Source of the DNA: Leptospiraceae bacterium
Lineage (GTDB): Bacteria; Spirochaetota; Leptospiria; Leptospirales; Leptospiraceae
NCBI GenBank assembly: GCA_022402465.1
Contig: JAKRSH010000029.1
Location: forward strand, 3,273-67,272
Length of the DNA: 64,000 nt
Reading direction: 5' to 3'
Of this stretch, positions 40,697-61,907 are shown piece by piece (within the stretch, counting starts at the first letter, position 1; each line of letters opens with the position of its first letter). The notes beneath the pieces are model-generated. The model was given only the letters and a program-made list of their open reading frames with translations. It made no database searches and was not told where the DNA came from. The position numbers and the translations under genes are program-made.

Positions 40697-40723
40697 TAAA
40701 CCTTTTATAAAATATACCGATAG
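40697..40723 (+). promoter_or_regulatory. Sigma-28-like promoter
   Basis: TAAA at 40697-40700, 15 nt, then ACCGATAG at 40716-40723, against consensus TAAA-N15-GCCGATAA. The ATG at 40732 lies 8 nt downstream without a Shine-Dalgarno. It is in the gap between divergent rsmG and the next gene. Confidence 0.4.
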
Positions 40724-40731
40724 CTAATAGT

Positions 40732-41454
40732 ATGAAAGCTATAGTATATTCTTCACTCCTTTTATTCTCCTTGTCTTTGTTTTCTTATTCACCTGGCAAA
40801 TGGTCTCATACAGATTCTATTTTACTATTTCCAAAGAAGACTAAAGATCTTCCAATACAAGAACTTGTTTATGATGAAAGTAACACATTAATTCTCACTT
40901 CCAATTTAAAATACAATGATGGTTTTTTGGTAAGTGAAGAATTCATATCTTCTGGAAAAAAGGAAGGATCGATTTCGTATCAATATGATAAGAACGGTAA
41001 ATTATCTAAAGAAATTACTTTAGATTCTTCAGGCAAAATGATAGAGATAAAGGAATTTGTATTTAATGGCAAAGGAAGTCTTTCAAAGATTAAAACCTTC
41101 GATGTAGATAAAAAGTTAATCCAAGATGCGACAATTTATTCTATGGATAGCGATATGATTTCTACTGCTGATATTCTATGGACTGAATCAAAAGATAAAG
41201 AAAAATATTCTCTCTCAACGAAACCAAATCTAAAGATTTTAACGATAATGGATGAGAAGAAGAAACCTATTGCAAAAATTGAGAACAAAATTAACGCAAA
41301 AGGCAACATCATAGAACGAGTTTATACACAAGGGAATATAGAAAGAAAAAATATTCTAGAATACGATAATTCAGATCGTTTAGTCCAATTTACGTTTCAC
41401 GTGAAACAAGATGGGAAATGGAAACTTTTAAAGACGCATAGATTATCTTATTAG
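40732..41454 (+). CDS. Exported hypothetical protein with YD-like repeats
   Basis: This 240-residue protein has a signal peptide (MKAIVYSSLLLFSLSLFSYS), then alternating strands with Asp/Gly turns: YQYDKNGKLSKEITLDSSGK, FNGKGSLSKIKTFD, LEYDNSDRLVQFTF. This resembles YD/Rhs-type or similar beta repeats. It is probably periplasmic or outer-surface. I do not recognise the family. It lies between divergent rsmG and convergent mnmG; a near-perfect parS site lies at its 3' end. Confidence 0.65.
   Translation: MKAIVYSSLLLFSLSLFSYSPGKWSHTDSILLFPKKTKDLPIQELVYDESNTLILTSNLKYNDGFLVSEEFISSGKKEGSISYQYDKNGKLSKEITLDSSGKMIEIKEFVFNGKGSLSKIKTFDVDKKLIQDATIYSMDSDMISTADILWTESKDKEKYSLSTKPNLKILTIMDEKKKPIAKIENKINAKGNIIERVYTQGNIERKNILEYDNSDRLVQFTFHVKQDGKWKLLKTHRLSY
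41393..41408. other. parS centromere site (15 of 16)
   Basis: CGTTTCACGTGAAACA differs from the parS consensus only at the first base. It lies within the last codons of the exported hypothetical gene, encoding TFHVKQ, and is 945 bp from the perfect site in rsmG. Confidence 0.85.
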
Positions 41455-56086: not shown

Positions 56087-57574
56087 TTGTATTCATTTTA
56101 TCAAATTATTTCATTTTTTTTCATTTTGAGCTTATTTTTTGAAATTAAGGCGAATGAAATTTTATTTCTTCCCGCTGCTTTGGAGGGCGAAGTTCGAATT
56201 CGTAACTCAGAAATTTCTCAATCTGATTTAAAAATTGAATTTGCTAAGCTTTCGAGTGACATAATAAATGAGGATCTTTATGTTTCAGCTAATTCTTATG
56301 ATAATTCATCTGAGACTTCTAAAGAAGTATGCAATATAAAAAGAGTACATTATGTAATTAAAGATTTTTACTTTTTTCCTCAGAACCAAACTCCCTCGGT
56401 TACGACATCCATTTACAATTGTTCCAGCGGCCAAGAGATTAGAAAGGAATCTTTATTAAAAGGTTACATCTACCAATCTTTAAGAGATCATTACAAAAAA
56501 GTTTTTCATTTTATACCTTCAAAATCTACTAACACTAAAGAAACTTTTAAACCAAAAGAATCAAATGTCTTATTTTTTATCGATGCGAGCGCATCTTTAT
56601 CAAATGAAAAAGCTGAACTAAATCAATTCATTACGAATGAGATTCAAATGAGAGGAATGGATTTATATTCCAATTTAGTTTCCGAAGGATCATATTTTTC
56701 ATTCATGAATGGAGAAATTTCATCTGTTCCGTTTGCAAAAATCAATTCCCCAGAAGACCTTTGGGTTGCTTATAGAAAACATATACAATCGATTAAAAAA
56801 TATAAAGATGTAAATGTTCAATTTCTCGTTCTTTCACCTATTCAATTTACCAAAAAAAAAGAATGGATTACTTTAATTAACGATGCAAGGTCTAAAGGAA
56901 TCTTAACTTACATTGTAGTTCCTTATAGCAGTGAGCATACCTATTATCAAAATATCGATTCGATTGCTAAAATAACCAACTCAAAATCTCTTCCAGTTAC
57001 AGTATGGAAAAAAGTAGGATTCCTACAAGGTGAGGAAAAATACTTAATTCTATATAAGGGATATCTTTATTCAAGCAACGAAAATCCTGGAAATTATTTA
57101 ACTTTAGATGAATTGGATAAAAAAAGAATTCAAATAGATGAAAAAATTACACCGTATAATATGAATCAGATGGTAGAAAAATATTTGAATCAAAAAATTA
57201 TACAAGAAAGCAAGTTTCAATCAAATATGAGCTATCTTTTAAAAAATACTTTATCAACTTTGAATTATCCTGAATCTGTAAATTCTAAAAGAATACTTGT
57301 TCGTTCCAATGGGCAAGCAATGTATATTCTTGTTAAGCCGAATGTAAATTTAATAAAAGGTCAATCCTACATATTGGAATCTAATTTTATTTTAGATGGT
57401 AGTAATTCTTGGAATATTCGCAACAATTCAGTTCGTACTAAAATTCATAATTTATCGTATAGATATCCGAAATTATTAGAATTCAAGCCTTCAGAAATAT
57501 CTGATTATTTAAAGAAATTTAATTTATCTGAATTAAAAGCTTATTTAATAGTAACTGTTGAGGAAGTTCTTTGA
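56087..57574 (+). CDS. Exported VWA-domain protein
   Basis: This 495-residue protein has a signal peptide (hydrophobic to about residue 22). Its VWA-like domain near residues 158-315 opens with NVLFFIDASASLSNEK, in which DASAS matches the D-x-S-x-S metal-ion-dependent adhesion site. A beta-rich domain near 395-495 follows. The protein would act outside the cytoplasm, probably binding a partner through Mg2+. It starts with TTG after AGGAAG. Its TGA overlaps the TTG of the next gene, so the two are coupled. No family closer than VWA is recognised. Confidence 0.7.
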   Translation: MYSFYQIISFFFILSLFFEIKANEILFLPAALEGEVRIRNSEISQSDLKIEFAKLSSDIINEDLYVSANSYDNSSETSKEVCNIKRVHYVIKDFYFFPQNQTPSVTTSIYNCSSGQEIRKESLLKGYIYQSLRDHYKKVFHFIPSKSTNTKETFKPKESNVLFFIDASASLSNEKAELNQFITNEIQMRGMDLYSNLVSEGSYFSFMNGEISSVPFAKINSPEDLWVAYRKHIQSIKKYKDVNVQFLVLSPIQFTKKKEWITLINDARSKGILTYIVVPYSSEHTYYQNIDSIAKITNSKSLPVTVWKKVGFLQGEEKYLILYKGYLYSSNENPGNYLTLDELDKKRIQIDEKITPYNMNQMVEKYLNQKIIQESKFQSNMSYLLKNTLSTLNYPESVNSKRILVRSNGQAMYILVKPNVNLIKGQSYILESNFILDGSNSWNIRNNSVRTKIHNLSYRYPKLLEFKPSEISDYLKKFNLSELKAYLIVTVEEVL

Positions 57575-58443
57575 TTGCAAAACTTCCTGAATCTAAATAT
57601 ATCTATGAAATTCACAATAAGCTATCTTATTATAAAAAGTCAAAACCAAGTCTTCTTATAAGAGGTAGATTTGGATCACGTATTGATGAAATAATTCAGC
57701 AATTTCTAGAAACTGAAAACTTAGAATTTAATGAAATTGATTTTCGTTTAGTTGCTAATACAACAATCTTTAAAGATGAATGGGAAACATTAAGAAACAG
57801 TACAAAGATAATTCTTTTCAAAGGTATAGATTCTTTAAGCAAGGAACTACAATCTTTATTATATAAAGAATTATTAAATCTTAGGAACCAAGAATATAAA
57901 CCTTGGATTATTTCAACAGCAAGCTATCGAATCAATGATTTAATGGAAAAGAAAAGCTTTTTGTTTGAAATGTACCAAATTTTAGCTACAAGTAACATAG
58001 ATCTAATTCCCATTTCAGAAAACAAAAAAGAAATGCCTATACTAGCTAAATACTTTTTAGATTGCTACGCAAAATTTTATAAAAAAAGACTGAAATATAT
58101 TGATGAATCTTATTTAAATTTTATCATTAAATATGATTTTCCAGGTGATTTGGAAGAATTGGAAAATCTTTTGCACCAATCAGTGATAGCAGGAAAGGGT
58201 CGAACATTAATACTAAATGATATTCCTAAAAATTTTTATGAAAATTCAAAAAGCAAATATGAAAGGAACCTTAAGATAATTCCTGGAGTCTCACTAAAAG
58301 AATATGAAAAACAAATCTTAAAAGAAAACTTAGCAATTAATAAAGGCAATAGAGAAATAACGGCAAAAATTTTAAAGATTCCAATTAGATCTTTTTATAG
58401 AAAATTAGATGAACATAACTTAAAAGATTCAAATTTGCAATAA
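57571..58443 (+). CDS. Degenerate NtrC-like protein with Fis-type HTH
   Basis: This 290-residue cytoplasmic protein looks like a sigma-54 activator that has lost its ATPase residues. The Walker A position reads LLIRGRFGSRID instead of GESGTGKE, and the GAFTGA loop is absent. The late AAA+ pattern remains (YDFPGDLEELENLLHQ, matching YPWPGNVRELENVIER). A Fis-family HTH near residues 236-283 ends the protein (NREITAKILKIPIRSFYRKL). It could still bind DNA but not remodel RNA polymerase (inference). It is coupled to the VWA gene by TTGA and convergent with holA. Confidence 0.75.
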   Translation: MIAKLPESKYIYEIHNKLSYYKKSKPSLLIRGRFGSRIDEIIQQFLETENLEFNEIDFRLVANTTIFKDEWETLRNSTKIILFKGIDSLSKELQSLLYKELLNLRNQEYKPWIISTASYRINDLMEKKSFLFEMYQILATSNIDLIPISENKKEMPILAKYFLDCYAKFYKKRLKYIDESYLNFIIKYDFPGDLEELENLLHQSVIAGKGRTLILNDIPKNFYENSKSKYERNLKIIPGVSLKEYEKQILKENLAINKGNREITAKILKIPIRSFYRKLDEHNLKDSNLQ

Positions 58444-59520
58444 TTTAAACATTTTTAGAAAACTATTATTGACCAATAAATGTAAAACATCTAAATCAGA
58501 ACTTGTCTTATGACGAAGATTAAGATTCAGTAAAATTTCATAAATCTCTTCCATGGTCTTATCATTGAAGTATTTTGCTTCTGTCCTTAGTTCTTTGAGA
58601 ACATGAAACTTTCTACCTTCTGAAAAATGTTCTATACCCAAAAGTTCATATAGTAAAGATTCATCCATATCAGATTTATTTTTCTTATGAATGACTCGAA
58701 ATGTTCTTAATTCGTTGAGTCTTTCTAAAAGTTTTGAAATTAATATTCCTAGTTCCACTCGAATGTCAGAAAGTTTCTTAAGCTCTTTGAAGAACTCAGC
58801 TCTTCTATTTTGAAAGAAAAGAGTTACAAGAGAGCTATAATTTAAAGCAGATCGCCCTAGAAGTACATTCTCTATATCCTCAACTTCAAATTTTTTTTTA
58901 CCTAAAAATGTTTTTAATTTATTTAAAGACTTCATATACGAACCCATGTTCGGTGGAATTCTGTGTAAGAATTCATCCATAGCCTCTGGACTTAAATGTA
59001 TATCATATTTCTTGGATAAATTTTCTAAATTTTTCCTAGTTTCATTTGGATAAAAATTTTTACTTACTATAGAATTGGCTAGATTTCCAAATAATTTTTT
59101 GATACTAGCTGGAAGATCCCAAGTATCATAATGAACAAGAATATAGACTTTGTCACTTAGTTGTGGTAGATGGTGTAGAAAATTTTGGTAAAGGTCATTT
59201 GGTTTCTTATTTTGCGTTCCAAGAAAAGCTTTGAAGAAAGTCGTTCCTGATTTGATAACTAGTAATTTAGTGGGATAAAACATATCTGGTGTAAAGCAAT
59301 GAGAAAAGAAGCTGTCCATCTCTCCACCTTCCCCAGTGAATACTATGATTTCAAAGGTTTCCTGATTTTTAGAAAGTTGCTCTTTGTAGTAATCCAAAAG
59401 CACGTCGAATTCAAAAGAATCTTGGGCTGCAAAAAGTAAAACCTGGGGTGCAGAATCTCTTTTGGCATCTAGGAAGCTTAGACAATTCGGATAGTCTTGG
59501 ATTTTCTTTTCATTAACCAT
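58429..59520 (-). CDS. holA: DNA polymerase III subunit delta
   Basis: This 363-residue protein is the clamp-opening subunit of the clamp loader. It shows the family's loose pattern: QVLLFAAQDSFEFDVLL, VFTGEGGEMDSFF, LLVIKSGTTFF, YILVHYDTW, a lid-like NMGSYMKSLNKL and a C-terminal helical bundle. HolA is poorly conserved, so the call rests on the overall pattern. No Shine-Dalgarno is seen. dnaX and holB are also in this window. Confidence 0.8.
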   Translation of the reverse strand: MVNEKKIQDYPNCLSFLDAKRDSAPQVLLFAAQDSFEFDVLLDYYKEQLSKNQETFEIIVFTGEGGEMDSFFSHCFTPDMFYPTKLLVIKSGTTFFKAFLGTQNKKPNDLYQNFLHHLPQLSDKVYILVHYDTWDLPASIKKLFGNLANSIVSKNFYPNETRKNLENLSKKYDIHLSPEAMDEFLHRIPPNMGSYMKSLNKLKTFLGKKKFEVEDIENVLLGRSALNYSSLVTLFFQNRRAEFFKELKKLSDIRVELGILISKLLERLNELRTFRVIHKKNKSDMDESLLYELLGIEHFSEGRKFHVLKELRTEAKYFNDKTMEEIYEILLNLNLRHKTSSDLDVLHLLVNNSFLKMFKLLQI

Positions 59521-59654
59521 TACTACTAACCATTTAAGATTATTTTGTTTAAATGAAAATCATAAATATCGCAAGGATTTTCTCTAAAACTGGTGTGATT
59601 TCAAGAGAAAAAAACAAATCCACAGTATAATGATATTTTTTTTTCTATTAAGTC

Positions 59655-59680
59655 TAAAGATCGGAAAGGAAAGCCGATAA
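59655..59680 (+). promoter_or_regulatory. Sigma-28 (FliA)-like promoter
   Basis: TAAA at 59655-59658, 14 nt, then GCCGATAA at 59673-59680, a perfect copy of the sigma-28 -10 consensus; the expected spacing is 15. The ATG at 59689 is 8 nt downstream, so transcription would begin at or just before it. This is the best flagellar-sigma-like promoter in the window. Confidence 0.65.
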
Positions 59681-59688
59681 TAAAGTAA

Positions 59689-59958
59689 ATGGAACTATCT
59701 AGTTTAGTACAATCTATTGGTAGAGGTGGCGAGTCAGCCTACGTATACACTTTACCGAACTATGCTCCTATTCAACCAGTGACTCCAGTCCATGGTCGAC
59801 AAGGACATTTTGACTCTAATCTTGGTAATTCTAAAAATTCTCCTAACAAAACTAATCTTTCTCAAGACTATAAAGAAAAAGCAAATCAGATCTTAAGCGA
59901 TTCTAAATCTCTTGGCTCATCTATTGTTCCTGGTATGCTTTTGAATCTGATAGCTTAA
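59689..59958 (+). CDS. Small hypothetical protein (possible FliA regulon)
   Basis: This 89-residue soluble protein starts MELSSLVQSIGRGGESAY, has an Asn/Ser/Pro-rich middle and a helical end (DYKEKANQILSDSKSLG, then a hydrophobic VPGMLLNLIA). No family is recognised. A sigma-28-like promoter with a perfect GCCGATAA lies 8 nt upstream, with no spaced Shine-Dalgarno. That points to a motility-related gene with a very short leader (inference). Confidence 0.65.
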   Translation: MELSSLVQSIGRGGESAYVYTLPNYAPIQPVTPVHGRQGHFDSNLGNSKNSPNKTNLSQDYKEKANQILSDSKSLGSSIVPGMLLNLIA

Positions 59959-60058: not shown

Positions 60059-60634
60059 TTAGTTCATAAATTCTTTCCAATATTGAATTTCTTGCAAGAA
60101 CTTTCGAATTGGAAATCCTAAAACATTTGTATATGATCCTTCAAATTTGTCGACAGGTCCTTCCCTATCTTGGATTCCATATGATCCTGCTTTATCAAAT
60201 GGTTGGTATTCATGGATGTAATTGTGAATTTGATTCGAACTCCAGGATTTAAAATAAACCTTAGTTGAATCATAATTGAAAATATCTATTTCTTCTCTTT
60301 GGAAAATGTAGAAGCTTGAGTGAACATAATGCATTTTTCCTGATAATTTAGATAAGATTTGAATTGCTTCTTCTAGATTTTCAGGTTTGTGAAGAATTTT
60401 ATCTTCAAAGGTAACAATAGTGTCGGAGGAAACTAGAATTGGTTCTTTATATTGAACTTTATTAACAATAGAAAGAGCTTTATTTATACTAATCCTTTTT
60501 AAATAATCCAGAGGTTTTTCATTAATATGTTCTGATTCATCTATGTTAGGTGTTTCTATGGCAAAATTTAAATTTAAATCAGTAAAGATCTTTCTTCGTC
60601 TAGCAGATTGGCTACAAAGTATCAATTCTTTCAT
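60059..60634 (-). CDS. maf: Maf-family nucleotide pyrophosphatase
   Basis: This 191-residue protein of the Maf family hydrolyses noncanonical or modified NTPs. Motifs are LCSQSARRRKIF at the N-terminus (SxSxRR), SSDTIVTFEDKILHKPENLEEA, and PFDKAGSYGIQDREG. The family is linked to cell-division arrest. No Shine-Dalgarno is obvious. It is divergent from the following exported-protein gene. Confidence 0.93.
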   Translation of the reverse strand: MKELILCSQSARRRKIFTDLNLNFAIETPNIDESEHINEKPLDYLKRISINKALSIVNKVQYKEPILVSSDTIVTFEDKILHKPENLEEAIQILSKLSGKMHYVHSSFYIFQREEIDIFNYDSTKVYFKSWSSNQIHNYIHEYQPFDKAGSYGIQDREGPVDKFEGSYTNVLGFPIRKFLQEIQYWKEFMN

Positions 60635-60681: not shown

Positions 60682-61611
60682 ATGATTCCTTGTTCTTATT
60701 TTAAATCAATTGGTATAGTATTTTTAGTATTATCACTGAATTCCATTTTTGCACAAGCTGACAAAGATTCAGCTAATAGCAGTGATTCTAGTAAAAAGGA
60801 ACTCAGCGAATCATCAAAAGAATCAAATCTTCCTGAGTTAAAATATGAATTCGGTGATGTTACTATAGATCTAAAAATTGAGACTGAAAGATTAAAAAAA
60901 TTATTCGAAAAGGAAGTTCAAAAGAACAAAATTCATCTAAAAAATACTTCTCAAACAGATATTTGGAAATCTTTAGATAGTATTAGAATCAATTCTGAAA
61001 ATCTATATATCAACGGAATTTATAAAGAATCCAGACGTTCTTACAAGAAAGGATTTGAAATTCTTAATCAATTTTATAAAGCTCAATCGGATTCTTATAA
61101 AGAGAAGTTTAAAGAATACAACCAAATTGTGAATCAAACTAAAGATAAATTGAATGAAGTAAATTCTGAAAATACAAATAACCGATTAGAAACTATTATC
61201 AAAAAACAGAAAGAGGCTATGTTGTATAATTATTTAGCTAAAAACCATGAAGTATCGGGTCGTTTCAATCAATCCTATACGTATTTTAAACTGGCTAATA
61301 AAGAACTTCTGCTTTGTTTAATGATTTTAGAAAAAGAATTGGCTGCTTACAATTCTAGTAAAGAAAAACATGAAAATGAAAATGATTCAAAATATTTGCA
61401 AGTGGATTATCTTTCACCGATAGCTAAAAAAGATTGGGATGATATCATTGGAGTGGATCATACAATGGAAGAAAACAAACGTGACATCGAACGAAAAAGA
61501 ATAGAAAAATATTTATCAACCAAGGTAAAAGAAGAATCAAAGCAAGCTAAACCTGATTCTAAGCAAGAAGCCAAATCAATGGAAGATTTTATAAAATCCC
61601 AACAACAATGA
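60682..61611 (+). CDS. Exported hypothetical protein
   Basis: This 309-residue protein has a signal peptide ending IFAQ, a Ser/Lys-rich linker, and then a largely helical, charged body (residues 60-270) with coiled-coil-like stretches. It ends in a Lys/Gln-rich tail. The helix pairs around residues 105-220 are TPR-like (SENLYINGIYKESRRSYKKG, NYLAKNHEVSGRFNQSYTYF). No function is recognised. The stop overlaps the start of the following lipoprotein gene by 4 nt, an operon. Confidence 0.75.
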   Translation: MIPCSYFKSIGIVFLVLSLNSIFAQADKDSANSSDSSKKELSESSKESNLPELKYEFGDVTIDLKIETERLKKLFEKEVQKNKIHLKNTSQTDIWKSLDSIRINSENLYINGIYKESRRSYKKGFEILNQFYKAQSDSYKEKFKEYNQIVNQTKDKLNEVNSENTNNRLETIIKKQKEAMLYNYLAKNHEVSGRFNQSYTYFKLANKELLLCLMILEKELAAYNSSKEKHENENDSKYLQVDYLSPIAKKDWDDIIGVDHTMEENKRDIERKRIEKYLSTKVKEESKQAKPDSKQEAKSMEDFIKSQQQ

Positions 61612-61907
61612 AGAGTTCTATATTTTATACAATTCATCTTCTTTGTTTATCATTGCTTGGTACCTTATTTTTTATAGATTGTAAGAAAAAGACTCCAGAT
61701 GTGGATATTCAAGATTGTGATGCTATTTACAATTATTATAAAGATGGAACTCATTATATACGAAGAGATTTAGTTACAGAGGATGGAGTGTTGGATTATG
61801 ATAAATTATTGGAAGACGGAAAGATAAAGAATTCCAATTGTTATCCAGCCAAGGATAAAGAAATGAATACAGATATTGAACTGGAAGAAAGAAGAACTCT
61901 TAGGTAG
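61608..61907 (+). CDS. Small hypothetical lipoprotein
   Basis: This 99-residue protein has a leader ending LFFIDC, a plausible lipobox with an unusual Asp before the Cys, followed by KKKTPDV. The mature 70 residues are hydrophilic with two further cysteines (IQDCDAIY, NSNCYPA). No family is recognised. It overlaps the gene upstream by 4 nt. The SDR gene follows after 11 nt. Confidence 0.7.
   Translation: MKSSIFYTIHLLCLSLLGTLFFIDCKKKTPDVDIQDCDAIYNYYKDGTHYIRRDLVTEDGVLDYDKLLEDGKIKNSNCYPAKDKEMNTDIELEERRTLR

Follow-up and report, generated by a model that had tools for sequence, protein, structure and literature searches.

The locus and its genes

The window, which is the whole 64,000-nt stretch of DNA analysed here, carries a gene for an 89-aa protein lying between holA, which encodes the delta subunit of DNA polymerase III and is read divergently from it, and a convergent maf, with a gene for a small putative lipoprotein further along (Table 1). 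The surroundings are housekeeping genes, with no flagellar ones among them. Beside holA, on the plus strand at 57571-58443, is a gene for a short sigma-54-activator-like protein of 290 aa, with a sigma-54 interaction domain, an AAA lid and a Fis-type helix-turn-helix; no receiver domain was matched in it.

Table 1. Features around the 89-aa gene, in window coordinates
Feature	Position	Strand	Basis or remark
-35 element TAAA, sigma-28-type promoter	59655..59658	+	direct reading; -35 signals of orthologs and flgM share the offset
-10 element GCCGATAA	59673..59680	+	direct reading; CGAT kept in 20/23 ortholog upstream regions
Predicted +1, giving a 0-3 nt leader	59686..59689	+	from the usual sigma-28 distance between -10 and +1
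Cysteine-free protein of 89 aa, mostly disordered by prediction	59689..59958	+	divergent member of an apparently Leptospirales-specific family
holA (DNA polymerase III delta), divergent neighbour	58429..59520	-	Pfam PF06144, just above cut-off; marker of the syntenic slot
maf, convergent neighbour	60059..60634	-	Pfam PF02545; same slot in genomes G001, G003, G006 and G007
Small putative lipoprotein	61608..61907	+	homolog directly after the small gene in the sister family

The promoter element

Read directly, the stretch 59650-59691 is aagtcTAAAgatcggaaaggaaaGCCGATAAtaaagtaaATG, and the arrangement that an earlier note had described is all there: TAAA, a spacer of 14 nt (59659-59672), GCCGATAA, and then the ATG of the 89-aa frame after a further 8 nt. 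The same note had called the -10 an exact copy of the flagellar sigma factor consensus, and it does agree with GCCGATAA at 8 of 8 bases. The spacing in E. coli is TAAA-N15-GCCGATAA, one base longer than in the window. Since a sigma-28 -10 element usually stands about 6-8 nt from +1, transcription is predicted to begin at the ATG or just before it. The purine-rich GGAAAGGAAA sits upstream of the -10 and so outside the predicted mRNA, and translation would therefore be leaderless; no usable Shine-Dalgarno sequence lies between CCGATA and the start codon in the window gene or in most of its orthologs. The presumed leaderless state is thus a matter of geometry, of the 8 nt from -10 to ATG. An inverted repeat, ATCGG-N9-CCGAT, surrounds the -10 in the window and is not conserved among the ortholog upstream regions compared, and an Rfam search at the promoter gave no match.

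By itself the motif is unremarkable in the host genome and is not enriched there. TAAA-N13-16-GCCGATAA occurs at 4 sites in the 3.99-Mb genome, as against 2 for the reversed control, and the looser TAAA-N15-17-CCGATA at 28 sites against 67, with 22 of the 28 falling within coding sequence. With no excess over the reversed control, significance from genome-wide counts alone was dropped, and the promoter claim therefore had to go to comparison across genomes. These counts are also what would be expected if the match in the window were an accident and the gene were not controlled by FliA at all, a reading to which we return with the orthologs.

A small-protein family of the Leptospirales

The 89-aa frame is a real gene with relatives. 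Orthologs of 75-81 aa, divergent from holA, were read beside holA in six genomes of the same bacterial family (G002-G007) and aligned, and a profile built from them finds the small gene in all 8 genomes of that family, including G001, where it lies beside maf, with weak matches in the sister family. The flanking holA and maf are themselves present in 8 of the 8, and the small gene adjoins one or both throughout. An enlarged profile extended the family to 23 genomes of the order Leptospirales, and a third search to 24 of the 30 examined. No convincing member was found outside the order in a sample of 393 Spirochaetota; one match elsewhere in the phylum, in G219, was judged spurious, a 460-residue frame being matched in mid-length with the N-terminus not shared. 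By these searches the family is an undescribed one, confined to the Leptospirales in a genome sample that is without the named Leptospira species (the known pathogens and laboratory strains). The ortholog was not detected in the four genomes of genus g15, which encode FliA and FlgM, so not every member of the order has the gene.

Within the family the window protein diverges most, sharing 17-26% identity with its relatives. BLAST with this single protein gave weak matches only (the best, at E 0.0146, later proved to be syntenic), and a scan of the genome contigs with it gave none. A profile from which it had been left out nevertheless ranks it best of the 861 reading frames in the window (E 1.1e-4; the next, 1.0), whereas the profile from its own bacterial family gives it E 0.51. 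As the latter is not significant, it takes synteny and the wider profile combined to establish the window protein as an ortholog. Additional, independent synteny is provided by the putative lipoprotein, a homolog of which lies next to the small gene in several sister-family genomes (39% identity and BLASTP E 4e-15 to the neighbour at locus L063); other neighbours there include genes resembling those for a DNA glycosylase and a valyl-tRNA synthetase.

The proteins of the family have conserved ends and a variable middle. In the sister family the N-terminal conserved stretch reads approximately GSQNxSRIPGxYAYPVxRYxxxPVExV, and the hydrophobic C-terminal tail is conserved as Gx[IFL][LI][DN][IL]xA. 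AlphaFold2 models of the window protein (pLDDT 57, pTM 0.18, from a shallow alignment of 6 sequences) and of an ortholog (pLDDT 57, pTM 0.17) are of low confidence and each contain one short helix, which suggests that the protein is largely disordered. Profile searches of Pfam, NCBIfam and PDB with the small protein gave nothing credible and no match to a flagellar family; the PDB sequences searched include entries for the leptospiral flagellar filament, and no such chain was matched.

A small, probably disordered protein behind a sigma-28 promoter brings to mind FlgM, the anti-sigma-28 factor (PF04316), whose own promoter is of the class III type. According to a review, moreover, a FlgM homolog has not been directly shown in L. 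interrogans (PMC12655853). The window protein is without sequence or profile similarity to FlgM, however: there is no PF04316 match, the profile-profile (hhalign) probability is 0.1%, and a separate FlgM is encoded elsewhere in the host genome (C17:177502-177666, 25.3 bits against a cut-off of 25), as it is in almost every complete relative. We have accordingly rejected the identification with FlgM, and even a more general FlgM-like anti-sigma function is hardly credible. The host copy of FlgM stands only just above the Pfam cut-off, and FlgM may have been missed in Leptospira annotations.

Conservation of the promoter among orthologs

Of the 23 orthologs, 16 have exact CCGATA in the 30 nt before the gene; of the 317 other frames in the same fetched loci that reach 150 aa or more, 1 does. 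The background chance of CCGATA is 0.0066 per 30 nt, which gives a naive binomial value of 3e-30 if relatedness is ignored; counted by hand by genus, the motif is present in 10 of 15. In G000, G002, G009-G012, G015, G016, G018 and G024-G027 it stands 7-11 nt before the start codon, and the same position is held by one-off variants in G014, G023 and G028 and by a weaker variant, ACGATG, in G008. G004, G006 and G007 differ in having CCGATA 19-23 nt before the start with a poor -35, together with a short leader in which AGAGG resembles a Shine-Dalgarno sequence; TTGTTT-17-TACACT is a possible sigma-70 promoter there. CCGATA is absent upstream of the orthologs in G001, G003 and G005, of the same family, and in G013.

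When the ortholog upstream regions are aligned on the -10, a second block of information appears 17-22 nt before it, where a sigma-28 -35 belongs, and its offset is the same in the 20 aligned orthologs as in 14 flgM promoters. A -35 profile trained on flgM only was then run over the ortholog upstream regions; of the 44 offsets scored, the best is precisely the one at which a -35 is expected. The spacers between the two elements are mostly unlike one another. The element thus exceeds chance because it is conserved before orthologs, not because of genome counts, and with a rightly placed -35 at orthologous positions an accidental match is very improbable. The motif had been looked for in close relatives as the earlier note proposed, and its reading holds up there, most orthologs keeping CCGATA and mostly at 7-11 nt from the start. 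A conserved, near-leaderless sigma-28 promoter is, on this comparison of sequences, well supported.

The same letters can be read in another way, with GATAAT as the sigma-70 -10 box of a leaderless promoter, CCG as incidental and the gene as constitutive. GATAAT is one base off TATAAT and is found at leaderless distance in G000, G002, G014, G024-G026 and G028, and in L. interrogans about 440 genes have a 5' UTR shorter than 10 nt, although at 37 C fewer motility genes than expected are leaderless (PMC5243855). What is conserved, however, is CGAT, present in 20 of 23, whereas GATAAT is variable at its two final bases (A in 10/20, T in 14/20); the -35 signal occupies the sigma-28 position and fits the profile learned from flgM; and a pattern scan of the plus strand ahead of the 89-aa gene found no sigma-70-like site. 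We therefore regard a constitutive sigma-70 promoter as improbable, and a sigma-28 promoter as the better reading of this element.

FliA and other putative targets

FliA itself is encoded in the host genome (TIGR02479, C28:35535-36209, 292 bits, above cut-off), and the intergenic TAAA-N15-17-CCGATA sites of that genome include those of flgM and fcpB. The flgM genes of 14 Leptospirales carry the same kind of -10 and -35, and in the class sample (loci L088-L117) most of the flgM genes that were read have CCGATA promoters. The fcpB gene, for an endoflagellar sheath protein (identified by an NCBIfam equivalog at 458 bits, cut-off 400, and by a PDB match), has TAAA-N16-CCGATAA about 80 nt before it (L130, G000 C9:211114-211139), which suggests that it is under FliA control. 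One flaB has TAAT-N15-TCCGATA in G000, G004 and G007. The published record is similar: sigma-28-type motifs are noted at FlaA1, FlaB1, FlaB4 and FliS of L. interrogans (PMC5243855, PMC12655853), and flaB2 of T. denticola has a CCGATAA/TTAA promoter (PMC9481697). The host flgM, flaB and fcpB promoters, which would be of class III, thus share with that of the 89-aa gene the CCGATA -10, a TAAA-like -35 and the offset between them; they differ in that their leaders are some 20 nt long or longer, while in the window gene and most of its orthologs CCGATA itself stands only 7-11 nt from the start codon.

Two further sites were noted in the host. At 40697-40722 of the window, plus strand, TAAACCTTTTATAAAATATACCGATA is followed, after 9 nt, by the ATG that opens the frame of a 240-aa protein (40732-41454, plus strand), which seems to carry a signal peptide and matched no family; judged by its sequence, this site is the second in the window that is sigma-28-like and near-leaderless. 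On the minus strand at L002 (G000 C25:68317-68343), TAAA-N15-GCCGATAA lies about 50 nt before a gene for a 117-aa protein of no known family (MTMNVTNIQQYLN...), followed by one for a 220-aa membrane-type protein, and the gene of the 117-aa protein is a candidate FliA target.

A probable late-flagellar accessory protein

Taken together, these observations support a picture that we consider probable as a whole: a real gene, transcribed by FliA with little or no leader, belonging to the late-flagellar set and encoding an accessory or adaptor protein of a Leptospirales family. RNA polymerase with FliA would transcribe the 89-aa gene from the TAAA/GCCGATAA promoter, starting at the ATG or within about 3 nt of it. 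Because a FliA-type promoter would drive the gene, its protein would be made when the other late (class III) flagellar products are, FlgM, FcpB and flagellin among them. From sequence comparison we infer FliA dependence, a leaderless transcript and a motility role, and on the same footing the gene probably belongs to the motility regulon. As to its candidacy for that regulon, raised by the earlier note, the conservation of CCGATA and the -35, the like promoters of flgM and fcpB and the presence of FliA speak in its favour, while the motif taken alone turned out to be unremarkable and four orthologs (G001, G003, G005 and G013) are without it.

The gene might also be FliA-controlled and yet encode something other than a motility protein, an envelope or metabolic one for example, an explanation that shares the promoter part with the one we prefer. 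Its neighbours (holA, maf and the putative lipoprotein, with the glycosylase-like and synthetase-like genes in the sister family) would suit such a product, as would the failure to detect the gene in g15, which has FliA. The known targets of FliA are mostly motility or chemotaxis genes, however, and we think a non-motility product unlikely. A role as a small late-flagellar accessory or adaptor would then be the likeliest. How such a protein would act is more speculative: its conserved N-terminal stretch and C-terminal tail, joined by a variable and probably disordered linker, would each bind a partner, in late flagellar or chemosensory function, and this adaptor mechanism taken by itself is only tentatively put forward. 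Less likely still is the full proposal of an order-wide late-flagellar protein of the Leptospirales, translated from a sigma-28 mRNA that has no leader and serving as a small disordered adaptor that the endoflagellum or its chemosensory control requires.

On that proposal, the leaderless mRNA would uncouple translation of this gene from the Shine-Dalgarno-based control, for example by CsrA, of other late flagellar genes. Like the leaderless mRNAs of L. interrogans (PMC5243855), that of the window gene has its predicted start less than 10 nt from the start codon; in contrast to that set, which is poor in motility genes at 37 C, it would be an example from the motility regulon.

Our search of the literature on the FliA regulon and on leaderless spirochaete genes found nothing on this small gene, and about four sigma-28-linked leptospiral genes that are named there, from predicted promoter motifs (PMC5243855, PMC12655853). 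The promoter signature, followed across the order, would add to them a gene that escapes recognition by sequence annotation. It also provides a usable sigma-28 consensus for the Leptospirales, CCGATA with a TAAA/TTAT-like -35 starting about 20 nt before it. Infection by Leptospira needs motility, and with the 89-aa gene the idea of a leaderless mRNA in the flagellar regulon could be put to the test.
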